This document shows, piece after piece, positions 37,663 to 47,538 of a DNA stretch of 64,000 bases. Under the pieces are notes generated by a model that was not told where the DNA came from, did no database searches, and was given only the letters and a program-made list of their open reading frames with translations. This stretch comes from Buttiauxella agrestis (GTDB taxonomy: Bacteria; Pseudomonadota; Gammaproteobacteria; Enterobacterales; Enterobacteriaceae): assembly GCF_900446255.1 (NCBI RefSeq), contig NZ_UIGI01000001.1, forward strand, positions 3,436,763 through 3,500,762. The letters run 5' to 3'. The first letter of the stretch is position 1. Every line of letters begins with the position of its first letter. Position numbers and translations under genes: made by a program.

Positions 37663-37874
37663 GACTGGCTCCTGTTTTTTGCTGTCATGGTATGACTTTG
37701 ACAGCATAGGTGTGCTGAGAAACCCGCAATCTTGCTTTTATATAAAACACGCTCTGCCTACAAGATTAATCCCAAAAGGCCGGTTTAAGACTAGGTTATT
37801 TATGCTGCAAAGTTATACTTCCGCCCGAGTAAAATCACTCAATAGCCATACGTAGTAAAGGGAAACAGTTACAC

Positions 37875-38882
37875 ATGCCCACCTCACCTTATTCCTGCCC
37901 TCTTGGTGCGTTAAGGATTATAGCCACTGGAGTTGCGTTGCCGCCTGATAAGGTGGAATCTTCAACCCTGGATCGAAAGCTCGGTAAAACTGTGGGATAT
38001 GTCGAACAGCGCTCGGGCATAAAATATCGTTTCCATGCCAGTGAGAATGCCAGCCAGGCAGTTCTGGCCGCGGCGGCATTGAATGATGCTCTTGACCGCC
38101 AAAACATTGATCCTCTTTCCATTGATCTCTTAATTTCAGCTTCTGCCATTGCCTACCAGGCGTTGCCTTGCACTGCGGTACATATCCTGAAAGCCGCCAG
38201 ACTGGCACCCGGAACAGCGGGTTTTGACATCAACAGTAGTTGTGTGAGCTTTATTTCAGCCCTGCAAGTCGCCTCTGGTTTACTGAATACTGGCAGCTAT
38301 AAACGCATTGCTATCGTCAGCGCCGATATTGCTTCGCGCGGTATCGACTGGAACCATGAAGAGTCCTCGTTAATTTTCGGTGACGGCGCGGCCTGCGCCA
38401 TCGTTGAACGTGGAGATGGTCAAAGTCGTATTCTTGGTAGTCTGGTGGAAATGTATCCTTCCGGAAGCGAACTGTGTGAAATACGCGCTGGCGGAACGCG
38501 ATGCAACCCACGAGCTGGCATGGAAGATGCCGATTTCCTTTTCCAGATGCAGGGAAAAAAACTGTTTCGTCACGCCTCATCTATTATCGAAGATTTTTTC
38601 CAACGCCTTCTGGATGAAAGCAAACTGACCCTGAATGACATTGCCACCGTAGTTCCCCATCAGGCCAGCCATTTATCTCTGGAACATATGCGCAAGCGTC
38701 TGCATGTTTCGAATGACGTTCTGATTGATATCTATCGCTATCATGGTAATCAGGTCGCGGCATCTATTCCTACCGCACTACATGAAGCGATGATTACCGG
38801 CCGTTTTAATGCCGGTGAGCCCGTAATGCTGATTGGCACAGCCGCGGGATTGACACTGGCTGGAATGATTATTCAGCCATGA
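37875..38882 (+). CDS. Ketoacyl-ACP synthase III/OleA-like condensing enzyme
   Basis: 335-aa thiolase-fold enzyme with the KAS III triad in place: C123 in DINSSCVSF, H262 in VPHQAS and N292 in HGNQVAAS. EQRSGIKYR near the N-terminus and IFGDGAACAIVE are also typical. KAS III enzymes join an acyl-CoA to malonyl-ACP, while OleA joins two acyl-CoAs head to head; sequence alone does not decide. Housekeeping fabH lies elsewhere in enterics, so this copy is dedicated to its operon. GGGAAA lies upstream with rather long spacing. First gene of seven; its stop overlaps the next start (ATGA). Confidence 0.88.
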   Translation: MPTSPYSCPLGALRIIATGVALPPDKVESSTLDRKLGKTVGYVEQRSGIKYRFHASENASQAVLAAAALNDALDRQNIDPLSIDLLISASAIAYQALPCTAVHILKAARLAPGTAGFDINSSCVSFISALQVASGLLNTGSYKRIAIVSADIASRGIDWNHEESSLIFGDGAACAIVERGDGQSRILGSLVEMYPSGSELCEIRAGGTRCNPRAGMEDADFLFQMQGKKLFRHASSIIEDFFQRLLDESKLTLNDIATVVPHQASHLSLEHMRKRLHVSNDVLIDIYRYHGNQVAASIPTALHEAMITGRFNAGEPVMLIGTAAGLTLAGMIIQP

Positions 38883-39895
38883 GAATTCTTGTCACCGGTG
38901 CAACCAGCGGGCTGGGGCGAAATGCAGCACAATGGTTACTTGAGGAAGGACATCGGGTAATTGCCATTGGCCGTAATCGGCAGGTGGGAGCAGAATTACA
39001 GGCTCTCGGAGCGATGTTTATTGCCCAGGATTTAACCCTGAGCACGGATGAAATGTTTTCTCATCTGGTACAGGGGTGTGATGCCGTCTGGCATTGTGCA
39101 GCAAAATCATCCCCTTGGGGCAAGGCGCAAGAGTTCTTCAATACTAATGTGGTTGTCACCGAAAAACTGGCATTCGCTGCAGGGCGAGAAGGAGTAGAAC
39201 GCTTTGTGCATATCTCATCACCAGCGGTGTATTTCGATTTTCGCCATCATCACAATCTGGTGGAAACCTGCCGGGCCAGCCGTTTTTCAAGCCAATACGC
39301 CACCAGCAAATATGCTGCTGAACAAGTACTGAAAAAGTCGGTCGATCGTTTCCCTGACACCATCTACGTGATCCTTCGTCCCCGTGGGTTGTTTGGCCCA
39401 CACGACCGAGTGATTGTGCCCCGTTTAATGCAACAACTCAGTGCAAAACGCAATGTCCTGCATTTGCCTGGCGGGGGCGAGGCACTGCTTGATCTCACTT
39501 TTGTACTCAATGTTGTGCATGCAATGGACTTAGCTACCCGTAATCAAAGCCTGCATTCCGGCTCAGTTTATAACATCACAAACCATCAACCAGAAAAATT
39601 GGCAGATATAGTAGATTCACTTCTAAATCAGAAGCTTAATTATAATTGTACCTTGCGAGCGCTTCCCTATAGCTTGCTGCATATGGCTGCATCAATTATG
39701 GAACTGATCGCTAAAGTAACCGGCAAAGAGCCGTTGCTCACGCGTTACAGCGTTGGCGCGGTATATTTTGATATGACACTGAGTTCTCAACGGGCCATTA
39801 ATGAGCTAGGTTATCACCCGCTCTACTCACTCGAAAAAGGTATTGAGTTGACTGGCGAATGGTTGCGGGTACAAGGAAAAGGTCGCCATGGCTAA
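38879..39895 (+). CDS. NAD(P)-dependent epimerase/reductase, OleD or 3-beta-HSD-like
   Basis: 338-aa extended short-chain dehydrogenase. The Rossmann motif is GATSGLGRNAA (7-17), an Asp-containing loop follows (AQDLT), WHCAAKSS is the structural motif, and the catalytic pair Y140/K144 lies in YATSKYAAE with S113/S114 upstream. It resembles 3-beta-hydroxysteroid dehydrogenases and OleD, which reduces 2-acyl-3-ketoacids. Next to the OleA-like gene it probably reduces the condensation product's keto group. No signal peptide. An AT-rich patch near 39,600 differs from the surroundings. Confidence 0.86.
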   Translation: MRILVTGATSGLGRNAAQWLLEEGHRVIAIGRNRQVGAELQALGAMFIAQDLTLSTDEMFSHLVQGCDAVWHCAAKSSPWGKAQEFFNTNVVVTEKLAFAAGREGVERFVHISSPAVYFDFRHHHNLVETCRASRFSSQYATSKYAAEQVLKKSVDRFPDTIYVILRPRGLFGPHDRVIVPRLMQQLSAKRNVLHLPGGGEALLDLTFVLNVVHAMDLATRNQSLHSGSVYNITNHQPEKLADIVDSLLNQKLNYNCTLRALPYSLLHMAASIMELIAKVTGKEPLLTRYSVGAVYFDMTLSSQRAINELGYHPLYSLEKGIELTGEWLRVQGKGRHG

Positions 39896-40694
39896 TATCA
39901 CAACCTTCGAAGTAGGCTACTGCACCCATATTGGTTGCATGGCATTGAAAGGGGCTGGTTTTCGGGTTTGTAAATTTCCGGCTCGCGCTTATTTAATTAA
40001 AGCGGGAGATAAATGCTGGCTGTGGGATACAGGCTACGCAACCTGGTTTGAGCATTATACGCGTTCGGGTATTTTCCAACTGTATCGAAAAATCACGCCA
40101 GTCTATTTTGACCCACGAGAATCACTGGCAGCCCAGTTGCGTGAGCAAGGCTACGCCCGCAGGGATATTCAAGGGGTGATCCTTTCCCATTTTCATGCTG
40201 ACCACGTTGCCGGACTGCGTGATTTTGCCGAATCCAATTTTATATGCTCCGGTGAAGGCTGGCAGAAAACCCGTGATTTACGCGGGCTGGCGGCATTGCG
40301 ACAGGCATTTATTCCGGGACTTGTCCCGGAGTCATTCGAAGATTCAGTACAGTTTTTTGAAAGTTTCACCCGCGTTGCACTGCCCGCAGAGTTGACTCCT
40401 TTTGCCCGAGGCTATGAATTACCTGGTAGCCAGGGGCAAGTGATTCTGGTGCCACTACCCGGTCATGCGGCCGGACACACCGGGGCATTTGTGCAAACGG
40501 ATGATGGCTGGGTATTGCTTGCCAGCGATGCAGCCTGGTCGCCAGTAAGTTATCAGATGTTGCGTGGCCCGTCCCGTATAGCCAATATAGTGATAGATAA
40601 TTCATATGCGTTTTACCAGACCCTGGAACAACTCAACCAGCTCTGGCGGGGCGGAAAGTGTGAAATTCGGTTATGTCATGAGGGAGATTTATGA
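39888..40694 (+). CDS. Metallo-beta-lactamase-fold hydrolase
   Basis: 268-aa binuclear metal hydrolase. The zinc motif H101-x-H103-x-D105-H106 (HFHADH) is complete, with H193 in PGHAAGH, bridging D214 in LASDAAW, and H264 in LCHEGD. The pattern is close to N-acyl-homoserine-lactonase-type enzymes. In this operon it could open a lactone, cleave an ester or hydrolyse a thioester intermediate. Overlaps the upstream gene by 8 bases and the next by 4. No signal peptide. Confidence 0.86.
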   Translation: MANITTFEVGYCTHIGCMALKGAGFRVCKFPARAYLIKAGDKCWLWDTGYATWFEHYTRSGIFQLYRKITPVYFDPRESLAAQLREQGYARRDIQGVILSHFHADHVAGLRDFAESNFICSGEGWQKTRDLRGLAALRQAFIPGLVPESFEDSVQFFESFTRVALPAELTPFARGYELPGSQGQVILVPLPGHAAGHTGAFVQTDDGWVLLASDAAWSPVSYQMLRGPSRIANIVIDNSYAFYQTLEQLNQLWRGGKCEIRLCHEGDL

Positions 40695-41974
40695 TCCCGT
40701 TTCGTACCCTCTGGCATTATTTTCGTATTCGTTACCGCCGCTTTGCCAATCGCGAGGCGTTGGAAAAATACCAACAGGTACAACTCAGACACTTCACTCG
40801 CCGAATCCTGACCAAAAGCCCTTGGTTTAACCGCTTTATTTCTCAACCCATCAGCAATTGGCCTTTAATGGATAAGTCACTGATGATGGAAAACTTTGAC
40901 GAAATGAACACCCAAGGATTACGGCGTAACAAACTGCTTGCTTGCGCGCTGAAATGCGAAAAGGATCGCGATTTTTCCCGGAAGAGCGGCAGGTTCAGCG
41001 TCGGGCTTTCGTCAGGGACTTCAGGTCAACGGGGTGTATTCGTCGTCAACCCTGAGGAGCAACAACTTTGGGCTGCGGGGATGCTGGCGAAAATGCTACC
41101 AGACGGTTTGTTTGCTGGAGAGAGGGTTGCCCTGTTTCTGCGCGCCAATAACAACCTGTATCAGAGCGTGAATAATCGCTGGTTGAGTCTGGCTTTTTAC
41201 GACCTTTTTCAGCCGATGTGTTCTCATTACTCCCCGCTTGAACAACAGTCTCCCACGATTATTGTCGCGCCCGCGCAGGTGTTGCGCGAACTGGCGTTAC
41301 GCGTAAAACGTGGTGAACTGACGCTGCCAGTGAAAAAGGTTATTTCGGTGGCGGAAGTGCTGGAGCAACAAGACCGCCAGCTTCTGAACGAGGTCTTTGG
41401 TAACGTGGGGGAAGTCTACCAGGCAACAGAGGGTTTTTTGGCTGCCACCTGTTCACATGGAACCTTGCATCTGAATGAAGAATGCCTGCACATAGAACCA
41501 CTGTGGATTGATGAGCAGCGCTTCACACCGGTTATCACAGATTTCACCCGCCAGACTCAACCTATCGTCCGTTATCGGTTGGATGATGTATTGGTTGCCA
41601 GTAACAAAATTTGCCCCTGTGGTAATCCCGCCCGAGCGATAAGCCACATTGAAGGCCGTTGGGATGATCAACTCAAGTTGGTTAATTGTCAGGGGGATTC
41701 ACAAATCGTATTCGCCGATCTTTGTAGCCGAGCTCTGGCGATTTCCCTACCTCTGACGGTGGATTATCGACTCATTCAACACGGTGCAACCACTCTGCAT
41801 TTGCTAGCTGATTGTTCAATGACTGAGCTTGAACATTGTAAAGCTGCATTGCAGGCGATGCTGCAACAGCAAGGCATTGATACGCAAAAACTCAGTTGGA
41901 AGCTGGAAAGCACAACGCTAATCCCGCAGTTCGACAGCAAAAGGCGGCGTATCACCCGCAAGGACGTTGCATGA
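40691..41974 (+). CDS. F390-synthetase/CapK-like adenylate-forming enzyme
   Basis: 427-aa member of the PaaK/CapK/coenzyme F390 synthetase branch of adenylate-forming enzymes. The phosphate loop is SSGTSGQRG (107-115), then YQATEG (243-248), the ribose-binding RYRLDD (294-299), and a CPCG motif (308-311) shared with F390 synthetases. It probably activates a carboxylate as an acyl-adenylate for transfer to a thiol, hydroxyl or amine. No carrier-protein gene is in the operon, so the acceptor is unknown. Start overlaps the previous stop as ATGA. Confidence 0.84.
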   Translation: MIPFRTLWHYFRIRYRRFANREALEKYQQVQLRHFTRRILTKSPWFNRFISQPISNWPLMDKSLMMENFDEMNTQGLRRNKLLACALKCEKDRDFSRKSGRFSVGLSSGTSGQRGVFVVNPEEQQLWAAGMLAKMLPDGLFAGERVALFLRANNNLYQSVNNRWLSLAFYDLFQPMCSHYSPLEQQSPTIIVAPAQVLRELALRVKRGELTLPVKKVISVAEVLEQQDRQLLNEVFGNVGEVYQATEGFLAATCSHGTLHLNEECLHIEPLWIDEQRFTPVITDFTRQTQPIVRYRLDDVLVASNKICPCGNPARAISHIEGRWDDQLKLVNCQGDSQIVFADLCSRALAISLPLTVDYRLIQHGATTLHLLADCSMTELEHCKAALQAMLQQQGIDTQKLSWKLESTTLIPQFDSKRRRITRKDVA

Positions 41975-42576
41975 AAAACCAGTTTTATCGCGCCAATCAG
42001 TTGCTGCTGGGGTGGGGATTTGTCGGCGTGATTTATCATCTGACCGACCATCTACAGGGTACCGGACGGGTTATCACGCCGTCATGGATTGACGAGTTCA
42101 TCCCTTTTTCGGCAAACGCTATCTGGCCGTATCTCTCCTTTTTCTTGATTATCCCTCTGGGCTATTTCCTGGCACCGCTTAATGCCGTGCGCTGGCTAGC
42201 CCGAGCGATGCAGATTGCCGCGCTGGGCGCAGGTACTGTGTATTTGCTGTGGCCGACCACGTTACAGGCACCCGTCGATACTGGGCATGGCCTAACCTCA
42301 AAATTGCTAAAAGGCTTGATTGCGGCAGATTCGACACAAAACTGTCTACCGTCGTTACATGTCACTCTGACCCTGCTTGCTGTGTGGGCGGTAGCTAAAT
42401 CCCGACAGAGTTTCACGACTTGGGTCCTTATGCTCTGGGGCTTCGTCATAGCCTTTTCTATTTTGCAGCTAAAGCGCCATTTATTTATCGACCTGATAGG
42501 TGGCGTGGTTCTGGCATGGATCGCCGGTGCACTGGCACAGCGATTGACACACAAAAAGGAGTTGTCTGGTGAATGA
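41971..42576 (+). CDS. PAP2-superfamily membrane phosphatase/phosphotransferase
   Basis: 201-aa membrane protein with about five to six hydrophobic segments. PAP2 motifs are PSLH (127-130) and KRHLFID (H170, D174), the layout of PAP2_3/AUR1-type enzymes that move a phospho-headgroup between lipids rather than of classic phosphatases; the N-terminal KxxxxxxRP motif is missing. The start at 41,971 overlaps the ligase stop in ATGA. Its presence suggests that the product is a membrane lipid or is attached to one. Confidence 0.8.
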   Translation: MKNQFYRANQLLLGWGFVGVIYHLTDHLQGTGRVITPSWIDEFIPFSANAIWPYLSFFLIIPLGYFLAPLNAVRWLARAMQIAALGAGTVYLLWPTTLQAPVDTGHGLTSKLLKGLIAADSTQNCLPSLHVTLTLLAVWAVAKSRQSFTTWVLMLWGFVIAFSILQLKRHLFIDLIGGVVLAWIAGALAQRLTHKKELSGE

Positions 42577-43675
42577 ATTAACCTTGCCCTTCATATTTAT
42601 GTTGGTGTTTGTTGTCGCAGAAGCAGTGCTGCTAAACCTGAACGGTCAACATCAGATTGACTGGCACGACGTGATTTTCAACCTCAACTCAGGGCATATT
42701 ATGCTTTGGCTGTTTCGTGGCCTGGAAGTGATCTGCTTTAGCGCGGTATTAAACTCCTTTAGCCTGGGATTATTTGCTGATACTGCGCCAGTCTGGGTCT
42801 GGTGTTTTACACTATTTGCATGGGATTTCGCTTTCTACTGGCTCCACCGGTTACATCATCAGTTGCGTTTACTTTGGGCGGTGCACGTCGTGCATCATCA
42901 GGGAGAGCATTACAATTTGTCGCTGGGAGTGCGGAATTCTTGGTACTCGTCGCTCACCTCGATCCCGTTTTTCATTACGCTGGCCTGGCTGGGTGTACCG
43001 CTGAGCGTATATCTGAGCATGTCAATTTTTCACTACACCATCCAATTCTTTAACCACAATGCGTTGACACCAAAACTCGGTTTTCTGGAAAAGATTTTTG
43101 TCACTCCCACCCACCACAGAGTGCATCACATAAATGAACGCACCTACGCGGACAGCAATTACGGTGGTACATTTATTTTCTGGGATAAGCTTTTTGGCAC
43201 GTTTAAAACTTTGCCGCAGGAGCTTCATTGCTATGGTGTTAAAGGCAATCCACCGACAAACAATCCGTTTATCGAAAGTAATCGTCCTTTCTGGCGCTTT
43301 TTGAACCGCCAGTCGTCGCCACGCCAGTTCAAGATTTCTTCATGGATGCTTTTTTGTGGAACTATCCCGCTGTTTGCGCTGGTGCTGGGCTATATCCATC
43401 TATACGGCTACGGCTACGACAATGTCTCTGTACCACAAATCGCACTGTTTGTGCTTCTGGCAATCGGCCCGGTCGCACTGGGTGCTATCTCCCAGGGGCA
43501 GTATTGGGGCGTTGTGATGTGGTTTGCTCTGACGCTTGCGTTACTGCTGCTGTTTGTCGTAGCACTAGGCTGGACGCAGATTTTCTGGGTTGGAACGATG
43601 TCGGTGCTAACGCTGCATGGTATTGGCATGTTATGCGGCTGGGGCCGACAGGCTGTAGCCAGGAGCGATATATGA
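42569..43675 (+). CDS. Sterol desaturase/fatty acid hydroxylase family protein
   Basis: 368-aa integral membrane di-iron oxygenase. Histidine clusters HRLHH (93-97), HVVHH (106-110), H163 in FNHN, and HHRVHH (182-187) lie between hydrophobic segments; three more helices follow after about residue 260, as in alkylglycerol-monooxygenase-like members. It should hydroxylate or desaturate a lipid chain. It starts with GTG at 42,569, seven bases after AGGAG, and overlaps the upstream gene by 8 bases. Confidence 0.85.
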   Translation: MNELTLPFIFMLVFVVAEAVLLNLNGQHQIDWHDVIFNLNSGHIMLWLFRGLEVICFSAVLNSFSLGLFADTAPVWVWCFTLFAWDFAFYWLHRLHHQLRLLWAVHVVHHQGEHYNLSLGVRNSWYSSLTSIPFFITLAWLGVPLSVYLSMSIFHYTIQFFNHNALTPKLGFLEKIFVTPTHHRVHHINERTYADSNYGGTFIFWDKLFGTFKTLPQELHCYGVKGNPPTNNPFIESNRPFWRFLNRQSSPRQFKISSWMLFCGTIPLFALVLGYIHLYGYGYDNVSVPQIALFVLLAIGPVALGAISQGQYWGVVMWFALTLALLLLFVVALGWTQIFWVGTMSVLTLHGIGMLCGWGRQAVARSDI

Positions 43676-44790
43676 AGCACAAGACAGCATTAAGGCCTCT
43701 GGCCTACCAACCCAATGATTTAGAATTACATAAAGCGCTGAAACAGGCGGTACATCAGTATCTCCGCCACAAAAACGATCATCGTTTCGCCGATGGACTT
43801 ACCATTGCCAAAATGGGGTTTCTGGTGCTGATATGCTTGGGTTGCTACTGGATGAGCCTGCGACAATCTACAAGTATGGCTTTTTTTGGTTGGTACTTTG
43901 GCTTCATATTTAGCGGTATGCTACTGATCGTTAATGTAATGCATGATGCCTCTCATAATGCCTTTTTCCGCGCCAGTTGGGCAAACGTACTGATTAACCG
44001 CTTGGTTTCTATTCCTCTTGGGCTTGATCCAGAGAGTTGGCGAGTGCGTCATGCCATTTTTCATCATACTCATACCAATATTTCCGGTTACGACCCTGAC
44101 ATTGATGAGAATGGCGTATTGCGTCAAACACCTTTTCAACAATGGAAACCTTTCATGCGTCTCCAGCACTGGTACTGGCCTGTCGTTGCCGCGCTAACTT
44201 TTCCTTGGTATATCTGGCTGGTAGATTGGTTAGATCGCGCCGGACAAACCCGAGTAACCGAAAGACTGGCGCGCAAAGGGATCACAGGATGGACTATTTT
44301 TTTGGGCAGCAAGGGCAGCCATTTTATGCTGGCATTGGCTATTCCGACTCTGGTACTACCTAAAAGTATCAGCCTGCCCGTCATTGTGATGATCTACTTT
44401 TTTTGCCAGATGATTGCGTCGTTGCTGTTTGTGATCATTCTCGTCGGAACCCACTGGGCTAAAGCGAAATTTTTCGAAGCACCCGAGCAAGGCAATATGC
44501 CGCATAACCGGTATCAGCATATTTTCGCTACCACATTTGACTGGCACACACGACCTACCTGGGTAGGTTACTGGCTCGGTGGGGCTAATCTGCATCTGAC
44601 TCATCATCTTTTCCCTCACTGGAATCACCGCCACTATCCTGAGTTAAGTCAGTTAATCGCTGATGTAGCAGCACAATTCGATCTGGATTACCAAAATCTG
44701 AGCGTGAGTGAGTTGCTGCATTTTCAGTACCGTTACCTCAAAGAGATGGGGGTTACCCCCCAGAATTCGCCAGGTGACAACGATCAATGA
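43672..44790 (+). CDS. Membrane fatty acid desaturase
   Basis: 372-aa di-iron desaturase with three histidine boxes: HDASH (91-95), HAIFHH (127-132) and HLTHH (308-312). Four hydrophobic segments surround them and ETPF-like N-terminal fusion domains are absent. It belongs with acyl-lipid/acyl-CoA front-end-type desaturases. The start at 43,672 overlaps the hydroxylase stop in ATGA. Last gene of the operon; it converges on apbE, and only a weak AATGAC/GTCATT repeat lies at its 3' end. Confidence 0.86.
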   Translation: MKHKTALRPLAYQPNDLELHKALKQAVHQYLRHKNDHRFADGLTIAKMGFLVLICLGCYWMSLRQSTSMAFFGWYFGFIFSGMLLIVNVMHDASHNAFFRASWANVLINRLVSIPLGLDPESWRVRHAIFHHTHTNISGYDPDIDENGVLRQTPFQQWKPFMRLQHWYWPVVAALTFPWYIWLVDWLDRAGQTRVTERLARKGITGWTIFLGSKGSHFMLALAIPTLVLPKSISLPVIVMIYFFCQMIASLLFVIILVGTHWAKAKFFEAPEQGNMPHNRYQHIFATTFDWHTRPTWVGYWLGGANLHLTHHLFPHWNHRHYPELSQLIADVAAQFDLDYQNLSVSELLHFQYRYLKEMGVTPQNSPGDNDQ

Positions 44791-44829
44791 CATCAGTAAG
44801 TCATTGGGTTGGCAGGGGTAGTACCAGGG

Positions 44830-47292: not shown

Positions 47293-47445
47293 GATGGAAC
47301 TTTTTTCAGCACGAAAAGACAATTATATAAGCACTAAAAGTTAAAACAAATAAAACCAAAAGAAAAATCAAATACTTACTGCAAAATAAAATCAGTAGCA
47401 CTGAATGATAAAACATACTGCTGATTTATATATAAAATAACTCCC

Positions 47446-47538
47446 GCTATCATCATTAACTTTATTTATTACCGTCATTCATCTCTGAATGTCTGTTTAC
47501 CCCTATTTTGGACCGGATGCTTGCATCCGGTTTTTTTT
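47446..47538 (+). ncRNA. micF: Antisense small RNA MicF
   Basis: Begins GCTATCATCATTAACTTTAT, the region that pairs with the ompF ribosome site, and continues as E. coli MicF with few changes. It ends in a CCGGATG-CTTG-CATCCGG stem with eight U residues. 93 nt, divergent from ompC. With Hfq it represses ompF translation. Confidence 0.95.

Follow-up and report, generated by a model that had tools for sequence, protein, structure and literature searches.

The window analyzed here, a 64,000-nucleotide stretch of Buttiauxella agrestis DNA (contig NZ_UIGI01000001.1), carries a seven-gene operon that very probably makes a dedicated membrane lipid. Judged from its sequence, this operon is real, conserved, and functional looking, and belongs to an apparently undescribed family. 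Its first four genes encode a 3-ketoacyl-ACP synthase III (KAS III), an OleD-like short-chain dehydrogenase/reductase (SDR), a metallo-β-lactamase-fold (MBL) hydrolase, and an adenylate-forming ligase of the TIGR02304 family. These genes form a core that recurs from Fusobacterium to Escherichia coli and is widespread and, apparently, unstudied. Beyond what the single window shows, exchangeable tails follow this constant core. We propose tentatively, with somewhat less than even confidence, that the product is a ceramide-like membrane lipid made by a route without serine palmitoyltransferase (SPT). A wider proposal would be a family of SPT-independent, sphingolipid-like lipids with exchangeable head-group modules in Enterobacterales, other proteobacteria, and beyond, with about 12% of complete E. 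coli genomes as producers; this we regard as rather unlikely.

An earlier note on this DNA had described seven forward-strand genes at 37875–44790 with 4- or 8-base overlaps at all six junctions, and a check of the open reading frames (ORFs) agrees: in gene order, the overlaps are 4, 8, 4, 4, 8, and 4 bases long, taking ATG 41971 and ATG 43672 as the starts of the PAP2 and desaturase genes, respectively. Read from ORFs and profiles, all seven genes have intact catalytic motifs (Table 1). The families named in the note thus stand (KAS III, OleD-like, MBL, F390-type ligase, PAP2, hydroxylase, and desaturase), except that its OleA-like label for gene 1 gave way to FabH-type scores. Its impression of complete active sites and a functional operon is borne out by conserved catalytic residues and low ratios of nonsynonymous to synonymous substitution rates (dN/dS).

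Table 1. Positions of the operon genes and of the whole insert in the window
Feature	Position	Strand	Assignment	Basis
Gene 1 (core)	37875..38882	+	FabH-type KAS III ketosynthase; Cys (DxNxSC), His (PHQAS), and Asn (GNQV) present	PF08541, PF08545
Gene 2 (core)	38879..39895	+	Extended SDR, OleD-like 3-oxoacyl reductase	Family profiles
Gene 3 (core)	39888..40694	+	Lactonase-fold MBL hydrolase	PF00753, structure model, conserved residues
Gene 4 (core)	40691..41974	+	F390-synthetase-related (PaaK-like) adenylate-forming ligase	TIGR02304
Gene 5 (tail A)	41971..42576	+	PAP2_3 membrane enzyme; PSLH and RHxxxD motifs, without KX6RP	Profile, model
Gene 6 (tail A)	42569..43675	+	FA_hydroxylase (sterol-desaturase-type) membrane enzyme; His boxes conserved; GTG start	Family profile
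Gene 7 (tail A)	43672..44790	+	Fatty acid desaturase, D2 paralogue type; three His boxes conserved	FA_desaturase profile
Whole insert, relative to the empty ada–apbE site of genome G001	37739..44829			Flank alignment

We compared the operon across 110 loci, some of them near-duplicates; apart from the window and two E. coli loci, the ligase was the sole criterion of choice. A gene was scored as present if more than 30% of it was matched on the ligase strand within 15 kb. KAS III, SDR, MBL, and ligase were all present on one strand in 106 loci, the others being L074, L081, L092 (which begins at the edge of its contig), and the broken locus L123. A complete tail A (PAP2, hydroxylase, and at least one desaturase) occurs without tail B in 66 loci, including L074 and L092, and in a few betaproteobacteria a desaturase lies upstream of the core. 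Tail B, found in the sister operon of a second B. agrestis genome (G009) but not in the window, consists of an OleD-like SDR, a GT21 glycosyltransferase, a 194-residue protein, and a GT1 enzyme. Eight loci have it complete without tail A; of these, L019 and L021 come from a single genome, and L123 is a broken copy. Both tails share one operon in four loci (L044, L047, L064, and L022, the last without the gene for the 194-residue protein), and the core stands alone in 19, some of which have tails beyond the query set.

Other tails were found at greater distance. In L099 (10302–13310) and L091 (10181–13294), the core is followed directly by a nonribosomal peptide synthetase (NRPS)-like protein and then by a desaturase and PAP2; the L099 protein has AMP-binding and peptidyl carrier protein domains behind a part read as condensation-like, and the adenylation residues of both resemble what we take to be an asparagine code. 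Eight distant operons (L116–L120, L122, L124, and L125) share the four core families of the window at 29 to 43% identity and have an ATP-grasp-like protein, for which the best model, PRK06849, scored 320 to 358 bits in the three tested, under its cutoff of 406. In distant core operons, this and other proteins replace the PAP2 enzyme, hydroxylase, and desaturase of the window, and the annotation includes a GNAT protein for L128 and L130 but none for L127. In Fusobacterium, the core families are accompanied by a classical SDR, a GT21 enzyme, and a 215-residue protein that may be related (23% identity) to the 194-residue protein of tail B. Based on such gene contents, the head group could be modular: a phospho-head would be added by PAP2, sugars by GT21 and GT1, and an amino acid by NRPS or ATP-grasp enzymes.

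Further neighbors were seen among these loci. By annotation, the core set is present in five of six plasmid loci (three with ATP-grasp, two with a divergent TetR–sulfotransferase pair). The sixth, L129 on the Pseudomonas megaplasmid pMPPla107, has a TIGR02304 ligase in whose vicinity the annotation shows no further core gene, and similar ligases are found on two other Pseudomonas plasmids (H31 and H32). The Rhodobacterales core operons L015, L131, and L132 adjoin a divergent TetR regulator and a sulfotransferase, a hint that their product may be sulfated. In L121 (5928–7010), a distant core operon is followed by a protein of DUF3419, a family that we take to be linked to BtaA, so that a betaine-type head group is possible there.

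The overlapping arrangement of the genes is conserved as well. Four-base overlaps were counted at the KAS III/reductase junction in 93 of 105 loci, at the MBL/ligase junction in 95 of 107, and at the ligase/PAP2 junction in 62 of 71, and the reductase/MBL junction has 8 bases in 51 of 107. Within tail A, the PAP2/hydroxylase overlap is 4 bases in 35 and 8 bases in 16 of 66 loci, and the hydroxylase/desaturase overlap is 8 bases in 26 and 4 bases in 8 of 62. Counting picked the start nearest to a 4-base overlap, which makes the numbers for 4 bases maxima, and near-duplicates are present among the loci. Between the window and G009, dN/dS is 0.07 to 0.10 for the four core genes (flanking controls, 0.05–0.08), and between two E. 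coli alleles it is 0.09 to 0.17 for the seven genes, looser than in the controls narI (0.03) and narH (0.01). These data support the prediction that the operon is translationally coupled and under purifying selection.

The earlier note gave the impression of a local oddity, which the surveys overturned. The gene set of the window was found in many gammaproteobacteria and betaproteobacteria, the core families also in other phyla, and 672 of 5426 complete E. coli genomes match the operon, 671 of them with at least 80% of 6882 bases in one place. The E. coli matches listed include ABU 83972, LF82, Nissle, ATCC 25922, and JJ1886; we take these strains to belong to phylogroup B2, and JJ1886 to ST131. 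The search for the same gene order that the note had suggested thus found it elsewhere, for example, in three inspected E. coli copies, where the seven genes lie behind narI and before purU, with rttR and tRNA-Tyr annotated in two; no assigned product was found. The copy of ABU 83972 (ECABU_RS07620–RS07650) is like the window operon in gene order, with 53 to 74% protein identity, and differs from it in chromosomal site; no name or product was found for it. At this site in strain K-12, we found RttR repeats only and no remnant of the operon, and a megablast search with the ada gene of the window gave no match in E. coli.

In the survey of the order, the ligase was found at E ≤ 1e-60 in 22 of 394 genomes, representing 13 of 115 genera; it was found in 7 of 398 genomes of a phylum sample and scored above the family cutoff in 4 of 60 relatives. 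The named loci are the best 80 of at least 560 confirmed ones, which favors close relatives, and loci L005 to L010, below the family cutoff, were left out. As a separate observation, the operon follows the nitrate reductase gene narI not only in E. coli but also in Citrobacter gillenii, a Serratia, and G316 (L011, L012, L013, L030, L044, and L112). This neighborhood contrasts with the oxygen-using families of genes 6 and 7; a common integration spot and regulation are candidate explanations.

Turning to the chemistry, gene 1 scored 336 bits with PRK07204, 213 with PRK09352 (FabH), and 103 with PRK09258, which we take to be the model that holds OleA; on these scores, an OleA identity was rejected. 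Its best solved relatives in a Protein Data Bank (PDB) search were 4v2p (presumably CerJ), FabH enzymes, and CorB. The best NCBIfam model of gene 2 is OleD, aligned over 1 to 324 of 329 positions at 160.2 bits, below the equivalog cutoff of 580, and a PDB search with gene 2 gave no match at 1e-20. In gene 3, H101, H103, D105, H106, H193, D214, and H264, which include the metal ligands, are invariant across 46 sequences (here as in the other motif counts, alignment rows with an internal stop or identical sequence were left out beforehand). Its model (predicted local distance difference test score [pLDDT], 91) has lactonases as all of its 25 best PDB matches, with template-modeling (TM) scores of 0.67 to 0.73 by query length, and it stays below the lactonase equivalog cutoffs (4-pyridoxolactonase, 51.6 of 325 bits; AiiA, 45.9 of 375; AttM, 38.5 of 390). 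Gene 4 scored 584.2 bits with TIGR02304, a family to which no function is assigned, above the curated cutoff of 251.9, and its PDB relatives are phenylacetate-CoA and PaaK-like ligases.

A condensing enzyme together with an OleD-like reductase, an adenylate-forming enzyme, and a hydrolase is reminiscent of OleABCD. Gene 1 could then condense two fatty acyl chains head to head, gene 2 reduce the 2-alkyl-3-keto acid, gene 4 take the role of OleC and adenylate it toward a β-lactone, and gene 3, in place of OleB, open the ring; the product would be a 2-alkyl-3-hydroxy (mycolate-like) acid, β-lactone, or olefin, decorated by the tail. The near full-length OleD match, the PaaK-like character of gene 4, the lactonase fold of gene 3, and the presence of CorB, an enzyme that joins two chains, among the relatives of gene 1 all fit this scheme. 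We nevertheless consider it unlikely, since gene 1 is of the FabH type, the TIGR02304 ligase and MBL hydrolase take the places of OleC and OleB (neither of whose families appears among the seven genes in profile scans), and tails with glycosyltransferases and PAP2 are ill suited to a hydrocarbon. This scheme overlaps with the ceramide-like proposal if the two-chain acid is a ceramide mimic.

The set of ligase, KAS III, and MBL also recalls pqsA, pqsD, and pqsE of Pseudomonas quinolone signal (PQS) synthesis. In such a pathway, the ligase would activate an aromatic or other starter, KAS III would extend it, and the MBL protein would release a diffusible signal or antibiotic. The PDB matches of gene 1 include PQS biosynthetic enzymes, the phenylacetate-CoA and PaaK-like relatives of gene 4 are in keeping with such a starter, and in Xenorhabdus loci the core is accompanied by no hydroxylase, desaturase, or glycosyltransferase; three of these loci, L058, L059, and L063, have PAP2 approximately 0.7 kb upstream. 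A PqsE-type assignment of gene 3 was rejected, however, as lactonases lead both profile and fold searches and PqsE is not among the matches. Moreover, three of the seven window genes belong to membrane lipid-type families, and GT21 suggests a hydrophobic acceptor, making a signal or antibiotic of this kind distinctly improbable.

The ceramide-like proposal draws on the constancy of the core and on the tails, which are combined within a single operon in four loci. PAP2 lipid phosphatases have the motifs KX6RP, PSGH, and SRX5HX3D; gene 5 conserves only PSLH and RHxxxD, and the phosphatase motifs KX6RP and SR are absent. The top three PDB fold matches of its model (pLDDT, 94) are inositol phosphorylceramide (IPC) synthase with ceramide, the sphingomyelin synthase-related protein SMSr with ceramide, and Aur1–Kei1, and the phosphatases LpxE and PgpB rank after these ceramide head-group transferases. 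The earlier note's reading of gene 5 as a transferase therefore gains from the missing motifs and the fold ranking and loses from its sequence profile, for which the only PDB match is LpxE (E 0.028). Alternatively, ordinary lipids could be hydroxylated and desaturated in the style of ornithine lipids, the core supplying a 3-hydroxy acyl donor and gene 5 being a lipid phosphatase, as its LpxE match would suggest; likewise, the only NCBIfam match of gene 6 is OlsE, at 63.5 bits far under the cutoff of 475. We hold such remodeling to be a little more improbable still, as 3-hydroxyacyl chains already come from ordinary fatty acid synthesis, which would make a dedicated KAS III and ligase superfluous, and as the core is found also with quite different tails.

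In tail B, the GT21 profile had only two PDB matches at E ≤ 0.001, both ceramide glucosyltransferase sequences (best E, 1.8e-22); the match spans 2 to 366 of 374 positions, and the D, DDD, DD, and QxxRW motifs are kept. For the 194-residue protein, a PDB profile search gave only a chance match (E 0.41), and a candidate Ser/Asp/His set can be read from its alignment. A free-standing tail-B pathway was rejected, because the sole genome among 60 relatives with GT21 and no ligase, G034, holds a deletion relic.

SPT itself was sought in 14 of the 25 carrier genomes found (eleven with tail A, two with the core only, and one, G009, with tail B; the genome of the window is not among them). It scored above cutoff in one of the 14 with NF047599 and in none with NF047600, compared with two and one of 14 control genomes, respectively. 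The window operon thus resembles a sphingolipid pathway in its SDR reductase, PAP2-superfamily enzyme, membrane hydroxylase, and desaturase, as do the sister and combined operons in their GT21 glucosyltransferase homologue, and it differs in that SPT is under cutoff in 13 of 14 carriers, with KAS III, the adenylate-forming ligase, and the lactonase-fold MBL hydrolase instead. Given the look-alikes of head-group enzymes and the scarcity of SPT, the acceptor is probably an amphiphile provided by the core itself. Its backbone may be a 2-alkyl-3-hydroxy acid, a 3-hydroxyacyl amide, or a different structure.

In a ceramide-like route, gene 1 would couple an acyl thioester with a second acyl or malonyl unit, and gene 2 would reduce the 3-keto group, like the ketoreductase that acts after SPT. 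Gene 4 could adenylate the resulting hydroxy acid and couple it on, and gene 3 may open a lactone or thioester intermediate or clear side products. In the form present in the window, gene 5 would then transfer a phospho-head group, and genes 6 and 7 would use oxygen to introduce hydroxyl groups and double bonds into the chain; in the sister operon, the GT21 and GT1 enzymes would add sugars instead.

Several observations weigh against a ceramide-like product, which is predicted from genes. The SPT sample is narrow (14 of 25 carriers, one with tail B, and two SPT families), and carrier G036 encodes, away from the operon, an SPT that exceeds the curated cutoff (G036:C2:4636778–4637947). No amide-bond enzyme is evident in tail A or B. 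The top three fold matches of gene 5 are weak (E 1.1e-3, 5.7e-3, and 6.0e-3, none reaching 0.001; TM 0.53–0.56 and RMSD 8–10 Å, with no control PAP2_3 protein folded), the sole PDB match of its profile is a phosphatase, and its weak NCBIfam matches (20 bits) are phosphatases too. GT21 is absent from the window operon, and it is related to the hopanoid enzyme HpnI as well (82.5 bits; cutoff, 310). Profiles of the desaturase and hydroxylase gave no PDB match at 0.01 and 0.1, respectively.

The history of the operon was followed in a quick tree of 98 loci, which leaves out eight near-duplicates and four loci with incomplete cores, and in a careful tree of 38 hand-picked rows. In both, the operons of the window and G009 are sisters (100/100), and next to this pair (100/99) stand the operons of Klebsiella sp. 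and Yersinia similis, which have both tails. The family has two old desaturase paralogues, of which the window keeps only the D2 type, and the window desaturase groups with those of Klebsiella and Yersinia similis. With a sister carrying the other tail and next relatives carrying both, the window copy is probably a trimmed form; in the simplest history, both tails were present in the ancestor, after which tail B and one desaturase disappeared from the window copy and tail A from that of G009. A single clade of tail-B carriers is rejected (approximately unbiased test, p 2e-7, 38-row tree), so that tail B must have been lost, or gained, repeatedly, and the whole set of tail labels needs 15 changes in the 98-locus tree. 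At the ligase/SDR2 junction of the B. agrestis locus L021, an alignment of 27 bases scores 24, no higher than the top score among 500 shuffles; this is statistically weak and only suggestive of a deletion scar. Decayed copies are seen in L158 (fused KAS III/reductase fragments before GT21, the gene for the 194-residue protein, and GT1), L123 (broken ligase and GT1), and L094 (hydroxylase and desaturase fragments).

In the window, the operon lies between ada/alkB/yojI on one side and apbE/ompC on the other, all on the reverse strand (names read from the sequences). The nearest relative, G001, has 6 bases where the window has 7091, and its ada DNA is 96% identical. In 11 of 12 genomes of the genus, apbE directly adjoins ada, and among these 12 only G009 (ATCC 33320 / DSM 4586, a record marked UNVERIFIED_ORG) has an operon at this site. 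Synonymous divergence between the two operons (0.62–0.92) is below that of the flanking genes (1.06–1.23), which may reflect transfer within the genus or a different codon constraint. The GC content is 48 to 51% in the operon, 51 to 54% upstream, and lower still around ompC; composition says little, since the flanks span both lower and higher values. Cargo of a mobile element was rejected, as the insert ORFs include no mobile gene and no target duplication was seen at the edges, although no repeat search was run, and an antiphage system was rejected because none of the seven proteins had a PADLOC match at 0.001. Upstream of ompC, the window also holds an ordinary MicF antisense RNA (47445–47538; Rfam RF00033, 102.9 bits).

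No description of the operon was found among the titles and abstract openings of open-licence papers that searches brought up (subscription papers and bioRxiv being outside this scope), in agreement with the statement of the earlier note that no named pathway has exactly this gene set. The term “F390 synthetase” occurs in a paper on ladderane genomics (PMC2649909) and in PMC5467263, and one F390 synthetase gene, which may or may not belong to the TIGR02304 family, appears among the tabulated transposon mutants of a kiwifruit pathogen (PMC9823363).

The further suggestion of the note, a dedicated fatty-acid-derived product, is upheld by the gene families, with a membrane lipid as the most likely form. 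E. coli and its genus are not known to make sphingolipids, and ceramide-like bacterial lipids act on host immunity and membranes. If the ceramide-like proposal is true, many human-derived E. coli strains, the probiotic Nissle among them, would make an uncharacterized lipid of this kind, and the core-plus-tail design would show how bacteria swap head groups on one scaffold. The easy genetics of E. coli Nissle would make this idea directly testable.

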